From assembly GCA_029246505.1 (NCBI GenBank), contig JAQWNC010000005.1, positions 1-64,000 on the forward strand: a stretch of 64,000 nt of DNA, written 5' to 3'. Every line of letters starts with the position of its first letter. Position 1 is the stretch's first letter. Source of the DNA: Arenicellaceae bacterium. GTDB lineage: Bacteria; Pseudomonadota; Gammaproteobacteria; Arenicellales; Arenicellaceae. The notes under the pieces were generated by a model. It saw only the letters and a list, made by a program, of their open reading frames with translations. It was not told the origin of the DNA and searched no databases. Of this stretch, positions 30,850 through 45,692 are shown in pieces. The position numbers and the translations under genes were made by a program.

Positions 30850-31626
30850 GTGAACCAGGAAAGAAATAATTTGGTAGGTAAGTCGACTGAGGCCACATCA
30901 ATCGAGTTTAGTTATCTGATGCCAGGTTGGCGAGCGCCAGGTAATGTCCATGCGCTGACTACAACACGAAATGGCGGGTATAGTCAGTCAGGTACTGCCT
31001 CATTGAATTTAGGAATGAATACTTCTGATTCGGTTGAGTTAGTGAAACGTAATCGTGACTATTTGCGTAAAGCATTAGCGCTTGATAGTGAACCCGTTTG
31101 GTTGAAGCAAGTACATGGTGCTGATTTGATATCGCTTCCCAGTCAATTAAATTTGCCCGTAGCAGACGGAGCTATTACTGATCAAAGCAGGCAAATATGC
31201 GCAATACTAACTGCCGATTGTTTGCCTTTATTTATCTGTGATCGATTTGGCAAGCAGGTGTCTTTATTGCACGTCGGTTGGCGTGGGCTAGCGGCGGGTA
31301 TCGTAGAGAAGGGCGTCGGCCGATTTGAGGCTTTGCCAGCTGATTTAATTGCGTGGGCAGGCCCGGGGATTAGTCAGTTAAATTTTGAAATTGGTGCAGA
31401 AGTACGTGAGCAATTAGGTGGGTCAGATGATTATTACCGGGCATCTGAACGAGAAGGGTACTGGTATGCAGATTTATATTCTTTAGTTGGAGATCGATTC
31501 AATGCAGTTGGAGTAAATGAATACGGTTGGGATACCAAATGTACATTCAAGGATGGAAAATCTTTTTATTCTTATCGTAGAGATCACGATTGCGGGCGTA
31601 TGGCGTCGTTAATATGGAAGAGCTGA
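30850..31626 (+). CDS. pgeF: peptidoglycan editing factor PgeF (YfiH/laccase-domain family)
   Basis: 258 residues, GTG start with AGGAA upstream. Conserved metal-site blocks are WLKQVHGADL, TADCLPLFI and LHVGWRGLAAGIVEKG. In E. coli this protein prevents wrong amino acids from persisting in peptidoglycan precursors, and family members also have purine nucleoside phosphorylase activity. It sits 48 bases after rluD and converges with nadC. Confidence 0.93.
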   Translation: MNQERNNLVGKSTEATSIEFSYLMPGWRAPGNVHALTTTRNGGYSQSGTASLNLGMNTSDSVELVKRNRDYLRKALALDSEPVWLKQVHGADLISLPSQLNLPVADGAITDQSRQICAILTADCLPLFICDRFGKQVSLLHVGWRGLAAGIVEKGVGRFEALPADLIAWAGPGISQLNFEIGAEVREQLGGSDDYYRASEREGYWYADLYSLVGDRFNAVGVNEYGWDTKCTFKDGKSFYSYRRDHDCGRMASLIWKS

Positions 31627-38602: not shown

Positions 38603-41083
38603 CTAGGCCGTTGATTGTATTGTCGAGCCGGGGCTGACTTCGCGAACCAACTCACTAGGGTCAAAATCATCAACATTGATTACGCTCATTAGATTTTTGT
38701 CAAAGTCACGCAGTTGCTTGCTTTCCAGTTTTGATATTATGCCAGCTTTACTGGCCGCTTCTATTAAAGCTAGACCTCGCACTTTAGGGATATTACCGGC
38801 TTTTATTGCGGCTCGCATGCGATCAAAAAGTTGATCTACCGCTAGACTTTCTATAAATACCGAATTTGCGTGGCCTAAAGGGTTGGTCGTTATGTCTTCT
38901 TTGAATACGCAACGACTTAGTTCCTGCCGAGCATTTGAGTCTCTGGTCATGAGTTTTACGATATCTTTTACATTTCTATCGCTGGGTGCGTTAAAGCGCG
39001 CACCTAAAGGAAATACCAGTGCCTTCAGTTTTATCGCAATTAGTTTATTTGGGTAGTTCTGTAAAGCTCCGAGCATGGCCGTTTGGTACTCGTGCAGTAG
39101 ATGATCCAACGACCAAGTGACCAGTGGTAACTCTTCTGTTGGGCAACCACGATTTTCATGATGTTTTAGCACCATGCTACTAAGGTATAAACTACTTAAG
39201 CAGTCGCCCAGTCGCGCAGATAGCATCTCCCTAAACTTTAATTTCGCCTGCAGCGTTAGCATGCTGGCATCTGCTACTAATGCGAACGCACTGCTGAGTC
39301 GGTCTAGATGTTGATAATAATGTGAAACGGGCGATGTGGTTGGTTTGGCCACAAAGCGAGAACCCGTCACTCCCATCACTAGAGCCCTAGCGGCATTGGT
39401 TAGCGTAAAGCCCACATGTTTAAAGAACACTTCGTCAAATTCTTCGATGGTCTCTTCATCGGTTTCCATATTGGCCAATTCCATTTCTCGAAGTACGTAA
39501 GGATGACTGCGGGTGGCACCCTGACCAAATATCATGAAGTTTCTTGTCATGATATTTGCGCCTTCAACGGTAATCGCGATAGGTATAGAACTATAGGCAT
39601 CAGCTACATAATTTTTATCTCCACGCATGATTGCTTTTCCACCATGAATATCCATCGCATCAATTGTCGATTGGCGGGCCATTTCAGTGCAGTGATATTT
39701 TAATATTGCTGAAGGCACACTGGGCTTTTCTCCCATGACTAATGATTGAGCGGTATGGAGTCTGGCAGCATTAACTATATATGCGCTGCCGCAAATCCGA
39801 GCTAGTGGTTTCTGAACACCTTCAAACTTCTTGATTGGAATGCCAAACTGTTTACGCAGCGAAGCATACGCAGTAGTGCCCAACATCATTTGTTGGGTAC
39901 ACGCGTTGCTGCCACTTGGCAAGGTCACACAACGACCCACTGAAAGGCAATTAACCAGCATTCGCCACCCTTTGCCGGCATTATCCACGCCACCGATAAT
40001 GTTCTCTAAGGGTATAAAAACATCCTTGCCGAGTATCGGCCCATTTAAAAAGGTTTCACCAATGGGTAAGTGCCGTCGACCTATGCTAACTCCTTTTGTT
40101 TTTCTAGGAATAAGCGCGCAGGTGATTCCGTAGTCATCAAATTCCCCAATTAAATGATCGGGATCTTTTAACTTAAACGCTAAACCTATTAATGTCGCTA
40201 CTGGCGAGAGAGTGATATAGCGCTTATTAAAATTAATTTTAATGCCCAGAACCGTTTTGCTTTTGTATTTACCTTTACAAACTATGCCTATGTCCGGGAG
40301 TGATGTGGCATCGGACCCAGCAAGTGGGCCAGTCAAAGCAAAACAGGGGAGTTCCTGTCCTTTTGCGAGTCTTGGAAGATAATGATCACGTTGTTCTTGT
40401 GTGCCATATTTGATCAGTAGTTCACCTGGACCAAGTGAATTTGGAACGCCAATATAATTTCCAATACATGCACCCGTGCTTCCAAGAAAACTAAGAATTT
40501 CAGTTTGAGCTACTTCACTGAAATCCAGGCCACCGTACTTTTTAGGAATGATCATTCCTAAAAACCCCTTTTTATGAATGAAGTCGGTAATTTCTTTTGG
40601 AATTACTGAGGTGTTGTGATTTATATCCCAACGATCGACCATGCGGCATAACTCGTGTACTGGTCCATCAATGAAGGCTTGCTCTTCTTCAGTCAACGTA
40701 GGCAGTGGGTTAGATAATAGTTTTTTCCAATTAGGTTTTCCCGAGAACAGGTCGCCGTCCCACCAGACCGTACCTGCATCTATAGCTTCCCGCTCGGTTT
40801 CGGATAAATCCGGAAGAATTTTCTTATACCAGGTATATAACGGTTTGCTTATGTGGGATTGGCGAACTGAGCTAATCGAAAGTATCCCCAATACTGCGGT
40901 AGTCAGTATTAACACCAGTAAAAGCCATCCTGCGACTCCGGTAGCTATGGACAGCACAGTGAATATCCCAAAAGCGATAGCCGCGGTTAATAAAGGTACT
41001 GAAAGATAGGCTAAAACAGTTTCTAGAATTATGGCAGCTAAAAGAAATAGTAACGTTAACATTGCGAACCCTCCAAGGCCCAT
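38603..41083 (-). CDS. fadE: acyl-CoA dehydrogenase FadE
   Basis: First step of fatty-acid beta-oxidation: FAD-dependent oxidation of acyl-CoA to trans-2-enoyl-CoA. 826 residues, close to E. coli FadE (814). N-terminal membrane segments (about 6-70), the dehydrogenase core (YGTQEQRDHYLPRLAKG, CFALTGPLAGSDA, VEGANIMTRNFMIFGQGA) and a C-terminal DUF1974-type domain. It is divergent from a TetR-type regulator and shares its direction with the downstream hydratase. Confidence 0.95.
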   Translation of the reverse strand: MGLGGFAMLTLLFLLAAIILETVLAYLSVPLLTAAIAFGIFTVLSIATGVAGWLLLVLILTTAVLGILSISSVRQSHISKPLYTWYKKILPDLSETEREAIDAGTVWWDGDLFSGKPNWKKLLSNPLPTLTEEEQAFIDGPVHELCRMVDRWDINHNTSVIPKEITDFIHKKGFLGMIIPKKYGGLDFSEVAQTEILSFLGSTGACIGNYIGVPNSLGPGELLIKYGTQEQRDHYLPRLAKGQELPCFALTGPLAGSDATSLPDIGIVCKGKYKSKTVLGIKINFNKRYITLSPVATLIGLAFKLKDPDHLIGEFDDYGITCALIPRKTKGVSIGRRHLPIGETFLNGPILGKDVFIPLENIIGGVDNAGKGWRMLVNCLSVGRCVTLPSGSNACTQQMMLGTTAYASLRKQFGIPIKKFEGVQKPLARICGSAYIVNAARLHTAQSLVMGEKPSVPSAILKYHCTEMARQSTIDAMDIHGGKAIMRGDKNYVADAYSSIPIAITVEGANIMTRNFMIFGQGATRSHPYVLREMELANMETDEETIEEFDEVFFKHVGFTLTNAARALVMGVTGSRFVAKPTTSPVSHYYQHLDRLSSAFALVADASMLTLQAKLKFREMLSARLGDCLSSLYLSSMVLKHHENRGCPTEELPLVTWSLDHLLHEYQTAMLGALQNYPNKLIAIKLKALVFPLGARFNAPSDRNVKDIVKLMTRDSNARQELSRCVFKEDITTNPLGHANSVFIESLAVDQLFDRMRAAIKAGNIPKVRGLALIEAASKAGIISKLESKQLRDFDKNLMSVINVDDFDPSELVREVSPGSTIQSTA

Positions 41084-41123
41084 GCCTATGTGTAAGCGCG
41101 ATCTTAGTTATAAAGTTAAAAAA

Positions 41124-41135
41124 GAGCGAACGCTC
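41124..41135. promoter_or_regulatory. palindrome GAGCG-AA-CGCTC in the fadE/TetR gap
   Basis: Perfect 5-bp arms with a 2-base spacer, in the 184-base gap between divergent fadE and the TetR-type gene. It is a candidate operator for that regulator; short palindromes of this kind also occur by chance. Confidence 0.45.
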
Positions 41136-41267
41136 GTAATTACTGATATAGTATTGCGCAATCGTGCATATAACAAGTGGCAAATTGTTTAAAATGATAA
41201 TTTACAGGTGGTTGACCAATTGCCAATCAGGAAGGTCTAGCCTTAGTTACTTTCGAGTAGGGTTATT

Positions 41268-42059
41268 TTGAATTCTGCCGCGCATTTGATCAACCAAGAA
41301 GCAAGCGAAGGAACCCTTCCTAATTCCATGGGCTCTTTGCTTTGCAAGCAACTTGAGATAAGAATTGACTCCTATGAGCAATTCTTACAGGTTTTCCCTT
41401 ACTCTGGGGATGCTATTTACCAGCTAATATTTGAACTATGTGGAAGTTCGATTAAGACCAAAAAACAACGTTTTGCAGTTGCCAATTTAAAAAGCATTTT
41501 TGAGGCGACATTTAAGATTTGTTCTCAAAGTAGCTTTCACGCAATGTCTCTACGTAATCTTTGCGACGCCACCGGAATTAGTATGGGTGGGCTATATTCT
41601 TGTATCAAGGGTAAGTACCAGTTGCTGTTACTAGTGAAAGAACTGGTGAGATTTCTAAGTGATGAAATGCATTGTGCAGCTCTGCAAATTGAGTCACCAA
41701 GCGAACGATTGGAATGGTTTATTCGTAACAATATTTATATGACAACGCTGCTGCAACCGTGGTTTTTTTTCTTGTACGTAGAAACTCATAGTCTTGAAGG
41801 GCCGGACCAGTTAGATTCAAAGGAGATCGAATTGGATACGATAAACCGAGTTGAAAAAATTCTTGAACAAGGTATTTGTAAGGGTGAGTTCAATGTTAAT
41901 GATACCGCCACCGTAGCAACCATTTTTTTTTCAATGGAACAGGAATGGTATATGAAGCCGTGGAAATATCGTGGGCTAGGTGTCGGCGTTGATCAATATG
42001 TGGAGACACTACTTGAGACTAGTCATACGTTAATCCACGGTACGACTCAGCCTGTATAG
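41268..42059 (+). CDS. TetR-family transcriptional regulator
   Basis: 263 residues. The helix-turn-helix is at about 88-115 (SLRNLCDATGISMGGLYSCIKGKYQLL), placed unusually far from the N-terminus because about 65 residues precede the usual domain. The ligand-binding half follows. The TTG at 41268 has AGTAGGG at a suitable distance; the next ATG (41328) lacks one. Position opposite fadE suggests that it controls fadE and senses an acyl-CoA or similar, which is inference. Confidence 0.85.
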   Translation: MNSAAHLINQEASEGTLPNSMGSLLCKQLEIRIDSYEQFLQVFPYSGDAIYQLIFELCGSSIKTKKQRFAVANLKSIFEATFKICSQSSFHAMSLRNLCDATGISMGGLYSCIKGKYQLLLLVKELVRFLSDEMHCAALQIESPSERLEWFIRNNIYMTTLLQPWFFFLYVETHSLEGPDQLDSKEIELDTINRVEKILEQGICKGEFNVNDTATVATIFFSMEQEWYMKPWKYRGLGVGVDQYVETLLETSHTLIHGTTQPV

Positions 42060-42080
42060 GCTCTATTGACAGAGATTTTA

Positions 42081-42380
42081 ATGTTAGGCAAACCAATAGT
42101 GGAATGGGTACGTGAATATGGAGCAGGCCATCAACATCCTTTTAACCGGTTAATGCATACTTGGGGAATACCAATGATTGTGGTTTCAGTACCACTTTTT
42201 GGCTTGGGTTTTGTTGAACCTCTCGTTTTTTGGTTAGCGGGATCGCTATTTATAACAGGTTGGATATTACAGTTTGTTGGCCATTGGTTTGAGGGGACGG
42301 CACCAGAATTTCTTAAGGATTGGCGATTTTTATTTGTCGGACTGCGCTGGTGGGTTGAAAAAATCAGGGGTAGGGCGTAG
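42081..42380 (+). CDS. Mpo1-like (DUF962) membrane protein
   Basis: About 99 residues with two to three membrane segments. The family signature is EWVREYGAGHQHPFNRLMHTWGIPMI and FVGHWFEGTAPEF, with conserved histidines that in yeast Mpo1 bind iron for alpha-oxidation of 2-hydroxy fatty acids. Bacterial members are poorly studied. A TTG at 42066 is an alternative start. Only 21 bases from the TetR gene, in the fatty-acid block, so a lipid role is plausible. Confidence 0.8.
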   Translation: MLGKPIVEWVREYGAGHQHPFNRLMHTWGIPMIVVSVPLFGLGFVEPLVFWLAGSLFITGWILQFVGHWFEGTAPEFLKDWRFLFVGLRWWVEKIRGRA

Positions 42381-42533
42381 ATAAAATAACAGGTTACAAG
42401 ATCGATCCCGGAATGACCGATCGTACTTTTCGGCTATAATTGCGCAACATCGTTCTTTATGTAGAGAAAAACCCTACATTTTAATTTGTTTGAATCCATC
42501 TGTTGCCTCAAACCACTGCCATGTAGATTTAAG

Positions 42534-42817
42534 ATGAACTACCAACCGATGCATTACCCTCGAATCATTGACGAGGATTAAGCTTCAATTCTTGATGGCG
42601 AATTGATTTAGTACCCAGCGTTAAGCGAAAAAGTATTTTACTTGAATGAGTCCTCCAAACTGGTTTGGGATTTATGCACTGGACAAATAACGGTTAAAAA
42701 ATCACCGATTTTTTAACCAGTGCGTATCCTGATGCGAAAATTTCAAGCGATGTGCACAGCGTACTCGATAACCTTTACGACGGCGGCGCAATGAAATTTA
42801 GTGCCTCTCCGGCATAA
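42534..42817 (+). pseudogene. PqqD-like protein, decayed
   Basis: The reading frame begins MNYQPMHYPRIIDED and is broken by TAA (42579-42581) and TAG (42609-42611). It continues ILDGELI…YPALSEKVFYLNESSKLVWDLCTGQITV and shifts frame at a run of six A (42695-42700). Adding one A restores ITDFLTSAYPDAKISSDV, then LDNLYDGGAMKF, to a stop at 42815-42817. The order of motifs (DGE, LN-x-S-x-x-LVWDL, later D…LDNLYDGG) matches PqqD-type peptide chaperones, which deliver peptides to radical-SAM or similar enzymes. No intact partner enzyme is nearby. The remaining gap (42381-42533 and 42818-43097) shows no other gene. Confidence 0.7.
42692..42718. repeat. 12-bp perfect inverted repeat inside the PqqD-like pseudogene
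   Basis: GGTTAAAAAATC (42692-42703) and GATTTTTTAACC (42707-42718) pair exactly around ACC. The frameshift lies in its A-run. Confidence 0.85.
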
Positions 42818-43097
42818 GCCGAATCACTTCTATTGACTTCATGGGGCTAAAGTCCGGAGTGAATTTTTAAACTACTATAATTGTTAGTATAGAGCTAGAC
42901 CTGATTGGGTCGGAGAAGTTCATTGAGAACGAATATTATTTGTCTGACAATGTTACTCAAGCTGTTCTTTATCTATTTTCTTTGGGTCTGCGCAATTTGC
43001 TCCAGATAGTAAATAGTGGTTGAACAGGTTTATCCTAATTAACGTCAATTTAGACTAAGTAATATATAATCGTATTGGGAGTAAAACCGATTAAACA

Positions 43098-43658
43098 ATG
43101 GCATCTCTTAAAGACCAATTATTAAAGACTGGATTAACCGACAAGCATTCGGTTAAAAAAACTCGCAATCGAAATGTGCCTAAACTAGCAAAAAAAGTTA
43201 GAGGGACAGTGCAGTCGAAAAGCGAGAAGTTGGTCGAGCAGGCGCGTCGCGATAAGGTGGCTCGAGACTCTGAACTTAATCGGGAGCGCCAGTCTGAAGC
43301 CGAAATGAAAGCGCAACACGCTCAAATTAAGCAGCTGATCGATACTAGCAAAATTGATAGAGCCGATGGTGAGCTTGCCTATAACTTTGTGATTGATGGG
43401 AAAGTTTTAACTATCTATGTGACTGGTGAGCAGCAAAATCAGCTTGCTCGAGATCAAATATTGGTAGTGATTAAGGGAGAGAATCAAGGGAGTCAGCAAT
43501 TTGAGTTAGTGCCAAAAGTGGTAGCTGAAAAAATCGCACAACGTGATGCGAGCTACGTCGTACTCAATGAATTCAATAGTGAATCAAAGCAGAGCATTTC
43601 TGGACCAGATGGCGATCCTTATGCCGATTATCAGATACCTGATGATTTGACTTGGTAA
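43098..43658 (+). CDS. DUF2058 family protein
   Basis: 186 residues, starting MASLKDQLLKTGLTDKHSVKK, the family N-terminus. A highly charged coiled-coil-like segment (about 20-85) is followed by a small folded domain with AYNFVIDGKVLTIYV. The family is common in gammaproteobacteria (E. coli YaiL-type) and has no established function. It converges on fadH. Confidence 0.88.
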   Translation: MASLKDQLLKTGLTDKHSVKKTRNRNVPKLAKKVRGTVQSKSEKLVEQARRDKVARDSELNRERQSEAEMKAQHAQIKQLIDTSKIDRADGELAYNFVIDGKVLTIYVTGEQQNQLARDQILVVIKGENQGSQQFELVPKVVAEKIAQRDASYVVLNEFNSESKQSISGPDGDPYADYQIPDDLTW

Positions 43659-43673
43659 ATTACGTTACAGCAT

Positions 43674-45692
43674 TTACAGGCTGGCAGCTAGCCGAGTGCC
43701 TTGATCAATTGCCCATTTTGCATCCAATTCGGTGGCAAGACTAGCACCACCGATAATATCGATTTGATGAGAAGTGCTTTTTAGATCTTCGTACAGATGA
43801 CGATTCGATAATTGTCCTGCGCAAATAACAATATTGTCTACTTTCAGCAGCTGAGTTTTTCCATCAGCTTTGAAGTGTAAGCCTTGGTCATCTATTTTTT
43901 GGTAGTCAACTCCGGATATGAAGTTGACGCCCTCGCGCTTTAAAGAGGAACGATGAATCCAGCCGGTTGTTTTACCCAACTTGCTTCCAGGTTTGCTTGA
44001 TTTTCGTTGTAACAGGTAGATTTGTTTACCATTAGGTTCAAAGTGTGGTTTTGTAAGTCCCCCTGGATGATTTAGCGCCTTGTCGATTCCCCAATAATCT
44101 AACCACTTATCTCGATTAAGTGTATACGAATGCTCTTTGTGGCAAAGGAATTCGGCAACGTCAAAGCCAATGCCGCCCGCGCCTATTATTGCAATTCGTG
44201 GGCCAATATTTTGTGAGCGATTTAAAGCTTGCCGATACGACAATACCATCGGGTGGTCTATACCGGGGATTTGGGGTGTTCGACCAACAACGCCGGTGGC
44301 CATAATAATGTGATCATATTGGTGTTTGCCTAGGTGATCCGGTGTGGCTGTAGTGTTTAGTTTAACCTTCACACCTTCTTTTTTGAGCATGGTGGTGTAG
44401 TAACGCAAAGATTCTAAAAACTCTTCCTTACCGGGTATTTTACTGGCGAGTTTGAACTGTCCACCTATCTCTGGGCTAGTTTCGTAAAGAGTAACCGAGT
44501 GACCCCGTTGCGCTGCGGTTATAGCGCATGAAAGACCAGCCGGGCCGGCACCAATAACTGCTAACTTTTTGGGTTGTATTGCTTTGCTAATTGTAAGTTG
44601 GGTTTCATGACAAGCTCTGGGGTTGAGTAAACAGCTTGCAATCTGGTTGTTAAAGGTATGGTCCAGGCAGGCTTGATTACACGCAATGCAGGTATTTATT
44701 TCGTCGCTGCGCTGTTGCTCGGCTTTAAGGATAAAATCTGGGTCAGCCAAAAGCGGGCGGGCCATTGAAACTAGGTCTGCGCAGCCATCAGCTAAAATAC
44801 TTTCTGCGATTTCTGGTGTATTTACTCGGTTACTTGTAACCAGAGGGATATTTACTTCACCCATCATACGTTGGGTAACCCAGGAGAAGGCCCCGCGCGG
44901 CACCGAAGTTGCGATCGTCGGTATACGTGCTTCGTGCCATCCTATGCCAGTATTAATGATGTCTGCACCAGCGGTTTCAATCGCTTTTGCTAGCTGCACT
45001 ACAGTGGCCCAATCGCTTCCGTCATCAATCAGGTCTAACATGGATAGGCGATACATAATAATAAAGTCACCGCCAACTTTGGCACGGCTGCGTTTTACAA
45101 TTCCAGTAGCGAAGCGCTCTGCCTCACTCAGAGCCCATTGGTCTGTGCGTTGGTTGGTTCTAGCAACCAAAAACTGGTTTATCAAATATCCCTCTGAACC
45201 CATGATTTCCACTCCGTCGTAACCTGCTTTAGAAGCAAGTACGGCGGCATTCACAAATTGTTCGATGGTTCGTTCTATGCCCCCTTCAGATAGAGCTGAC
45301 GGTTTGAATGGGCTGATTGGGGATTTAATTCCAGATGGTGCAACGACAAAGGGCTGGTATCCGTAACGCCCTGCATGCAGTATTTGTAAGAGTATCTTTC
45401 CATCTTCTCGATGTACTGCATCCGTGATGATCCGATGTTTTTTGGAGTGGCTAAGCCGACTCATACTTGCTGCAAAGGGTTTAAGCTGGCCCCGAAAATT
45501 TGGTGAAAATCCACCGGTAACCATTAGGCCAATGCCGCCCGCAGCTCGTTCAGAGTAAAAGGCGGCGAGCCTTTCAAATCCACCACGTTTTTCTTCTAGC
45601 CCAGTGTGCATAGAACCCATAATCGCGCGATTCTTGAGGGTGGTTTTACCTATTTTTAGAGGTGAAAGCAGGTTTGGGTATAGTGGATGCAT
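43674..45692 (-). CDS. fadH: 2,4-dienoyl-CoA reductase (NADPH)
   Basis: Needed for beta-oxidation of unsaturated fatty acids with even-position double bonds. 672 residues in three domains: an FMN-binding TIM barrel (1-360), a 4Fe-4S site with cysteines in CIACNQACLDHTF and CLLNPRAC (about 335-360), and an FAD/NADPH domain (AVIGAGPAGLSCAI, then IIGAGGIGFDVAEFL). It is divergent from a broken TetR gene, with an 18-bp palindrome between them. Confidence 0.95.
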   Translation of the reverse strand: MHPLYPNLLSPLKIGKTTLKNRAIMGSMHTGLEEKRGGFERLAAFYSERAAGGIGLMVTGGFSPNFRGQLKPFAASMSRLSHSKKHRIITDAVHREDGKILLQILHAGRYGYQPFVVAPSGIKSPISPFKPSALSEGGIERTIEQFVNAAVLASKAGYDGVEIMGSEGYLINQFLVARTNQRTDQWALSEAERFATGIVKRSRAKVGGDFIIMYRLSMLDLIDDGSDWATVVQLAKAIETAGADIINTGIGWHEARIPTIATSVPRGAFSWVTQRMMGEVNIPLVTSNRVNTPEIAESILADGCADLVSMARPLLADPDFILKAEQQRSDEINTCIACNQACLDHTFNNQIASCLLNPRACHETQLTISKAIQPKKLAVIGAGPAGLSCAITAAQRGHSVTLYETSPEIGGQFKLASKIPGKEEFLESLRYYTTMLKKEGVKVKLNTTATPDHLGKHQYDHIIMATGVVGRTPQIPGIDHPMVLSYRQALNRSQNIGPRIAIIGAGGIGFDVAEFLCHKEHSYTLNRDKWLDYWGIDKALNHPGGLTKPHFEPNGKQIYLLQRKSSKPGSKLGKTTGWIHRSSLKREGVNFISGVDYQKIDDQGLHFKADGKTQLLKVDNIVICAGQLSNRHLYEDLKSTSHQIDIIGGASLATELDAKWAIDQGTRLAASL

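Follow-up and report, generated by a model that had tools for sequence, protein, structure and literature searches.

A probable relic of a PqqD, kinase and nucleotidyltransferase cassette in a genome of the Arenicellaceae

The window analysed here, a stretch of 64,000 nucleotides (positions 1 to 64,000 of contig JAQWNC010000005.1) from the draft genome of an Arenicellaceae bacterium (G000), carries at 42534-42817 what is almost certainly a pseudogene of the PqqD family. We read this relic, with a probability of roughly 0.7, as the dead free-standing RRE of a cassette of NTP_transf_5, PqqD and HprK-like kinase genes that related genera have kept. Taken alone, a pseudogene would be ordinary. Domains of the PqqD type often occur with no known precursor and are then difficult to interpret, and here the relatives carry a motif that points to a testable candidate substrate. 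The relic, its lesions and its neighbours, together with a second wreck elsewhere in G000, are as follows (positions are those of the window unless a contig is named).

41268..42059, + strand: TetR-type regulator, intact, upstream of the relic (Pfam TetR_C_24, over cut-off).
42066..42380, + strand: Mpo1-like gene, intact, upstream (Pfam PF06127).
42534..42817, + strand: PqqD-type (RRE) pseudogene of ~94 codons (Pfam PqqD match of the read-through, and our own profile in two frames).
42579..42581, + strand: first in-frame stop, TAA (sequence and script).
42609..42611, + strand: second in-frame stop, TAG (sequence and script).
42690..42712, + strand: zone where the similarity switches frame (profile matches in two frames end and begin here, and the relic's two tblastn pieces overlap).
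43098..43658, + strand: DUF2058 gene, intact, downstream (Pfam PF09831).
Contig C20 of G000, about 30958-31598 (L115:8959-9599), - strand: wreck of an HprK-like kinase in at least two frames (TIGR04352, three-frame reading).

The broken frame starts at the ATG at 42534, the PqqD similarity switches frame near 42698, and it ends at the TAA at 42815-42817, giving a read-through of 94 positions when X stands for each of the two stops and for the junction of the frames. With two stops and a frame change, the relic lacks the open reading frame of a PqqD/RRE domain. Against Pfam PF05402 (PqqD) the read-through scores 34.9 bits (E 2e-8; cut-off 23.4). Taken singly, the middle piece falls under the cut-off (18.5 bits, E 0.0026) and the last piece has no match. 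Our own profile, built from 20 PqqDs of relatives, gives the relic 31.7 bits in the first of two frames and 6.1 bits in the second, compared with -1.1 bits at the runner-up place in the window and 2.6 bits for the best of 20 first-order Markov windows used as control. Aligned with 18 relatives, the relic retains all four invariant columns (N38, W45, L47 and P66) and 6 of the 11 columns conserved to at least 80%, and the top PDB match to the PqqD profile with the relic included is 9x8z, a 'PqqD family protein' (E 8.4e-8). The preliminary description, made from the letters alone, had proposed a PqqD-type pseudogene broken by two in-frame stops and a single-base loss and amounting to about 94 residues, a normal PqqD length. 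The profile search bears out the family, both stops and a frame change are confirmed, and the length agrees with that of intact PqqDs in relatives (~90-105 aa).

Breaks of this kind might be errors of sequencing or assembly in a gene that is intact in the organism, as could be argued from the draft state of the genome (30 contigs) and from the survival of conserved residues between the lesions. However, 284 bases between genes that are fully open hold three separate lesions, of which two are substitution-type stops, and a pseudogene is therefore far likelier than sequencing error; moreover, another gene from a system of this kind is also broken and NTP_transf_5 is absent from the genome (both described below). 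We consider such errors very improbable. Still harder to credit is a gene that remains functional through stop readthrough and frameshifting: the conserved residues largely retained between the lesions would be in keeping with it, but the ribosome would need to get past two different stop codons and a frame change, in a genome where no other part of the cassette is intact.

Intact counterparts of the relic lie in a recurrent cassette. Across 60 related genomes, which with G000 make up a comparison set of 61, the relic matches 43 places; the best 20 of the 43 are PqqD genes at 31-41% identity, and a kinase or nucleotidyltransferase match lies nearby in 20/20 of them. In the sister genera g2 and g3 of the same family a relic match is present in 14 of 19 genomes, and every one of these PqqD places (14/14) has an NTP_transf_5 (PF14907) match as well as an HprK_rel_A (TIGR04352) match within 2.5 kb. 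When all 43 places are considered, both partners are found within this distance in 22 and either one in 30. Altogether 29 PqqD places, in 23 of the 61 genomes, have both partners within 2.5 kb, as discrete RRE, HprK-like kinase and NTP transferase genes. The search among relatives that the preliminary description had called for, with radical-SAM, kinase or precursor-peptide genes as possible neighbours, thus finds the kinase, and in addition a nucleotidyltransferase; inspection by eye showed no radical SAM gene directly next to the relatives' cassettes. The usual order in ORF maps is nucleotidyltransferase (~371 aa), PqqD (~95 aa) and kinase (~280 aa), the nucleotidyltransferase coming last in G002, and in several members of the family the cassette adjoins genes that by eye resemble mutY, yggX and trmB. 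Five of the relatives' kinases score 73-110 bits against TIGR04352, under its cut-off of 200, and this is still their best-matching named kinase family, while one cassette PqqD scores 21.3 bits against TIGR04353 (cut-off 35); the cassette members scanned thus lie below the thresholds of the HPr-rel-A system (kinase >200, PqqD >35 bits). For the relic itself TIGR04353 gives no match listed at E <= 10.

On these comparisons the origin of the relic in such a cassette is quite probable. Another PqqD context (a lone PqqD gene, a fusion of PqqD with a glycosyltransferase, a lasso peptide cluster or PQQ synthesis) is unlikely as its source, at something like one chance in six. Among NCBIfam models it is indeed the PQQ-type PqqD TIGR03859 that matches the relic best (31.4 bits), no cassette remnant lies beside it, and PqqD is found fused to other enzymes in this order. 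Yet the relic is under the TIGR03859 cut-off of 46, as are two intact cassette PqqDs (42.4 and 39.3 bits), and its nearest relatives are cassette genes, in 14/14 places within the family and with a partner match near each of the best 20 places. Inspection by eye of the ORFs surrounding the relic showed no pqq genes.

The relic sits between the Mpo1-like gene (42066-42380) and the DUF2058 gene (43098-43658), and in the interval 41000-44000 the matches listed by relaxed tblastn and those of kinase profiles were only noise as regards remnants of a kinase or nucleotidyltransferase, as was the complete tblastn output for either at relaxed settings over the whole window. DUF2058 and the intact PqqD cassette are on different contigs in 11/11 family genomes that have both. 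Matches to DUF2058 were obtained in 23 of 61 genomes and to the TetR neighbour in 12 of 21; the sole genome of the same genus (88% complete) has a match to neither. Because the relatives carry their cassette elsewhere and no remnant lies beside the relic, it could derive from a lone PqqD gene, and it is not shown that a cassette was ever present at the relic's own site. The earlier proposal that this lineage once carried a modified-peptide or similar system at this place is supported for the former existence of a system of that type; its 'here' is not supported, given the empty interval and the separate contigs. Compared with a named genome collection, the Mpo1-like neighbour matched 37 loci, the best at 57% identity, with no close relative among the 37; its closest named relatives (53-57%; L078-L081) come from metagenome bins assigned to KSB1, Flavobacteriales, Planctomycetota and Rhodobacteraceae; so odd a mix suggests transfer or mislabelled bins.

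What is left of the system in G000 points to a cassette that has died in this genome. The genome, at 97.5% completeness, gives no NTP_transf_5 (PF14907) match in the genome profile search and no PF05402 match at E <= 0.001, and so no match to an intact PqqD; the PF05402 scan probably misses the relic because the breaks split its signal. HprK_rel_A matches are confined to C20:30988-31550(-), where two pieces lie in two frames, with E 6.1e-9 and 7.3e-6 against NCBIfam TIGR04352, and no Pfam kinase family matches either piece. The first piece scores almost alike with a profile of cassette kinases and one of other HprK-like kinases (29.2 vs 29.0 bits), and the second favours the cassette type (10.7 vs -3.2 bits). 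By these scores the C20 wreck is a dead HprK-like kinase, not clearly of the cassette type. Profiles detect no PqqD remnant next to it, and derivation of both wrecks from one cassette is not shown. The relic had been described as having no partner, which is accurate for its locus and, given the broken kinase on C20, perhaps not for the genome as a whole. In the same-genus genome G001 there are two PqqD matches inside long frames, one of them (L182:4711-6594) with PhyH and glycosyltransferase domains, and no kinase and no NTP_transf_5 match.

Proteins that might be substrates of the cassette were seen near the PqqD gene in three relatives (L018, L022 and L025), where basic residues and a hydrophobic run lead into W-x-K-P-x6-LPAHAQ. 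A degenerate DNA pattern for W-x-K-P-x6-LPAHAQ, allowing up to 1 mismatch and checked on the three known sites, yielded 97 sites in 29 of the 61 genomes (L142-L171 included) and none in the reversed control. The motif is present in 29 of the 38 genomes with a PF05402 match and in 0/23 without (Fisher P 8e-10), and at genus level in 11/13 with PqqD vs 0/10 without (P 7e-5), a count that answers shared ancestry only in part, related genomes being non-independent samples. It occurs in 20 of the 23 genomes with the full trio within 2.5 kb, compared with 9 of the 38 others (P 1e-6), and 9 of the 97 sites are within 5 kb of a PqqD place where 1.05 would be expected from rough genome sizes (P 2e-6). 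The candidate substrates number up to 12 per genome, reach ~500 aa and are encoded mostly away from the cassette.

Residues were counted at 42 distinct sites, which do not cover all 97 and take in a few variants. Trp and Pro, both part of the search expression, are present in 42/42, and so is V, I or L two past the Pro, which is not part of it; RR is found within 45 residues upstream in 39/42. At position +3 past the presumed AxA cut, outside the search pattern, the residue is Ser in 33 sites and Thr in 9, and conservation ends there. The resulting signal consensus is RR...W-x-K-P-[VIL]-[VIL]-...-LPAHA/Q-T-S (the slash marks the presumed cut), with Trp at -15 and Ser/Thr at +3. We give an even chance to the view that this is just a Tat signal of the usual kind, specific to the lineage and ending in an AxA signal-peptidase site, that it has nothing to do with PqqD, and that the association arises from shared ancestry and genome size: the RR in 39/42 sites is of that type, the TIGR01409 Tat signal was detected in 1 of 3 proteins scanned, related genomes are not independent and some genomes have the motif without the full trio. 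However, a Tat signal or an AxA site has no need for the W, the P, the L-P-x-H-A or the Ser/Thr at +3, and all of these are conserved here; the motif is, moreover, confined to genera with PqqD (11/13 vs 0/10), and its co-location with PqqD is above expectation.

Motif and cassette do not correspond one to one, since nine genomes carry the motif but lack the full trio. In G046, G049, G053, G057 and G060 PqqD lies beside one partner, in some cases at a contig end; in G008 and G012 the nucleotidyltransferase is the only partner of PqqD, in G028 the kinase match that accompanies PqqD is weak, and in G001 PqqD is present only inside long frames. The trio is present with no motif at 1 mismatch in G002, in G023, which has a 2-mismatch variant, and in G034, where a PqqD-kinase fusion adjoins a protein with Y-T-P-P-A-M, of the YxxP type. 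A relaxed search (3 mismatches) of the 32 site-less genomes gave one match in each of 5, compared with matches in 7/32 for the reversed control; those in G013 and G023 (2 mismatches) we take as true variants, that in G039 (3 mismatches) is perhaps another, and the other two look like chance. G000 has no LPAHAQ motif site even when 3 mismatches are allowed, which is what a joint loss of machine and substrates would predict. The same-genus genome G001 has one LPAHAQ protein, a W-N-Q-P variant (L178, G001:C136:4410-4457).

Two further arrangements were noted in the relatives. PqqD-HprK fusions at L181:1559-3065 and L135:354-2108 lie beside a small protein in which Y-T-P-P-A-M follows a basic and hydrophobic stretch, and such proteins are perhaps a second leader class. 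PqqD fused to a glycosyltransferase or to a PIG-L deacetylase is found beside LPAHAQ-type genes at L174:3177-9480, L177:2-2899, L176:2671-9600 and L172:4154-6340; the PqqD at L174:5387-7531 is seen by our own profile only, and the Pfam PqqD match in L172 is under the cut-off. Searches of the open-access literature for the 'LPAHAQ' motif and for HPr-rel-A terms found nothing.

Outside the order the motif is almost absent. A class sample of 276 genomes, 273 of them outside the earlier set, contains it in 1/273 (G233), a genome with two sub-cut-off HprK_rel_A kinases in which an LPAHAQ gene is followed by a PqqD-glycosyltransferase fusion. Among class genomes with an over-cut-off HprK_rel_A match the motif is found in 0/27, and among those with a strong sub-cut-off match (E <= 1e-16) in 1/8. 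By these two counts the motif is no general companion of HprK_rel_A kinases and is a speciality of this order.

If the relic belonged to such a cassette, its ancestor would have been an adaptor holding the leader end of a precursor, as RREs do; the kinase would phosphorylate the precursor so held, and the nucleotidyltransferase would modify it further. With less assurance, W-x-K-P-x-[VIL] may be the adaptor's grip inside the signal peptide, the cut after AHA may be signal-peptidase-like, and the Ser/Thr three past the cut may be the phosphate acceptor. That the exported LPAHAQ proteins are the precursors of the cassette is a tentative proposal from the motif counts, to which we give somewhat less than an even chance. 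With similar reserve we suggest that an LPP-like set (see below), in places with PqqD-fused glycosyltransferases, could act on a whole class of Tat-type exported proteins, not on a small peptide, and modify their new N-terminus, with further groups added to that phosphate, and that the relic could be the tombstone of a lost system of this kind. In that event this lineage, on a reading that falls a little short of even odds, may have lost the adaptor, the kinase and the nucleotidyltransferase together with the tagged proteins. Within the order the N-terminal motif is found only in genomes with a PqqD match, and its WxxP and its +3 Ser/Thr match the grip and the acceptor described for LPPs; if the proposal is true, RRE-guided modification reaches beyond small peptides to an exported protein class. 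The wrecks in G000 are a natural test by joint loss.

The closest known parallel is with the linear polyphosphorylated peptides (LPPs), whose clusters are described as encoding LppB (an RRE), LppK (an HprK-like kinase), LppN (an NTP transferase) and LppS (an SpI-like peptidase), and which are called restricted to Bacillota (PMC13381572). The LPP leader motif, according to the same account, partly resembles [Y/W]xxPx[L/V/I/F/A], and Tyr occupies position -16 and Ser position +3 relative to the cut; Ser3 of the core is phosphorylated, LppK is inactive on S3T, and the precursors, of 35-200 aa, are encoded within the cluster (PMC13381572). More generally, RREs of certain groups, including PqqD and lasso types, are reported to bind a W/Y/LxxP/L/I sequence (PMC12710340). 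The relatives of the relic share with LPPs the set of RRE, HprK-like kinase and NTP transferase, and their candidate leaders share the [Y/W]xxPx[L/V/I] sequence and an acceptor-type residue at +3 after a signal-peptidase-like cut. Unlike the LPP precursors as described, however, the candidates of this order have a twin-arginine-type signal, reach ~500 aa, are scattered over the genome and lie outside Bacillota; the 9 Thr at +3 among 42 sites fit the reported inactivity of LppK on S3T poorly, and inspection by eye showed neither an SpI nor an MsbA-type gene next to the relatives' cassettes.

Paeninodin-like lasso clusters, as presented in PMC7533575 and PMC13381572, have the same B1/PqqD, HPr kinase and nucleotidyltransferase and WxxP leaders, but neither the macrolactam cyclase (C) nor the B2 peptidase was recognised by eye beside the cassettes. 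The HPr-rel-A system of NCBIfam (TIGR04352 kinase, TIGR04353 PqqD) differs in that the relatives' proteins scanned (five kinases, one PqqD) are under its cut-offs and that the class genomes with over-cut-off kinases are without the LPAHAQ motif (0/27). RRE-glycosyltransferase fusions are described in PMC7470986, and similar fusions adjoin LPAHAQ-type genes in several of our genomes; the section of that paper devoted to these fusions names no LPAHAQ-type precursor. On this evidence, which is that of sequence comparison, the intact system of this order would be new with respect to LPPs in the bacteria that host it, in how large, how numerous and how scattered its putative substrates are, and in their Tat-type signal.
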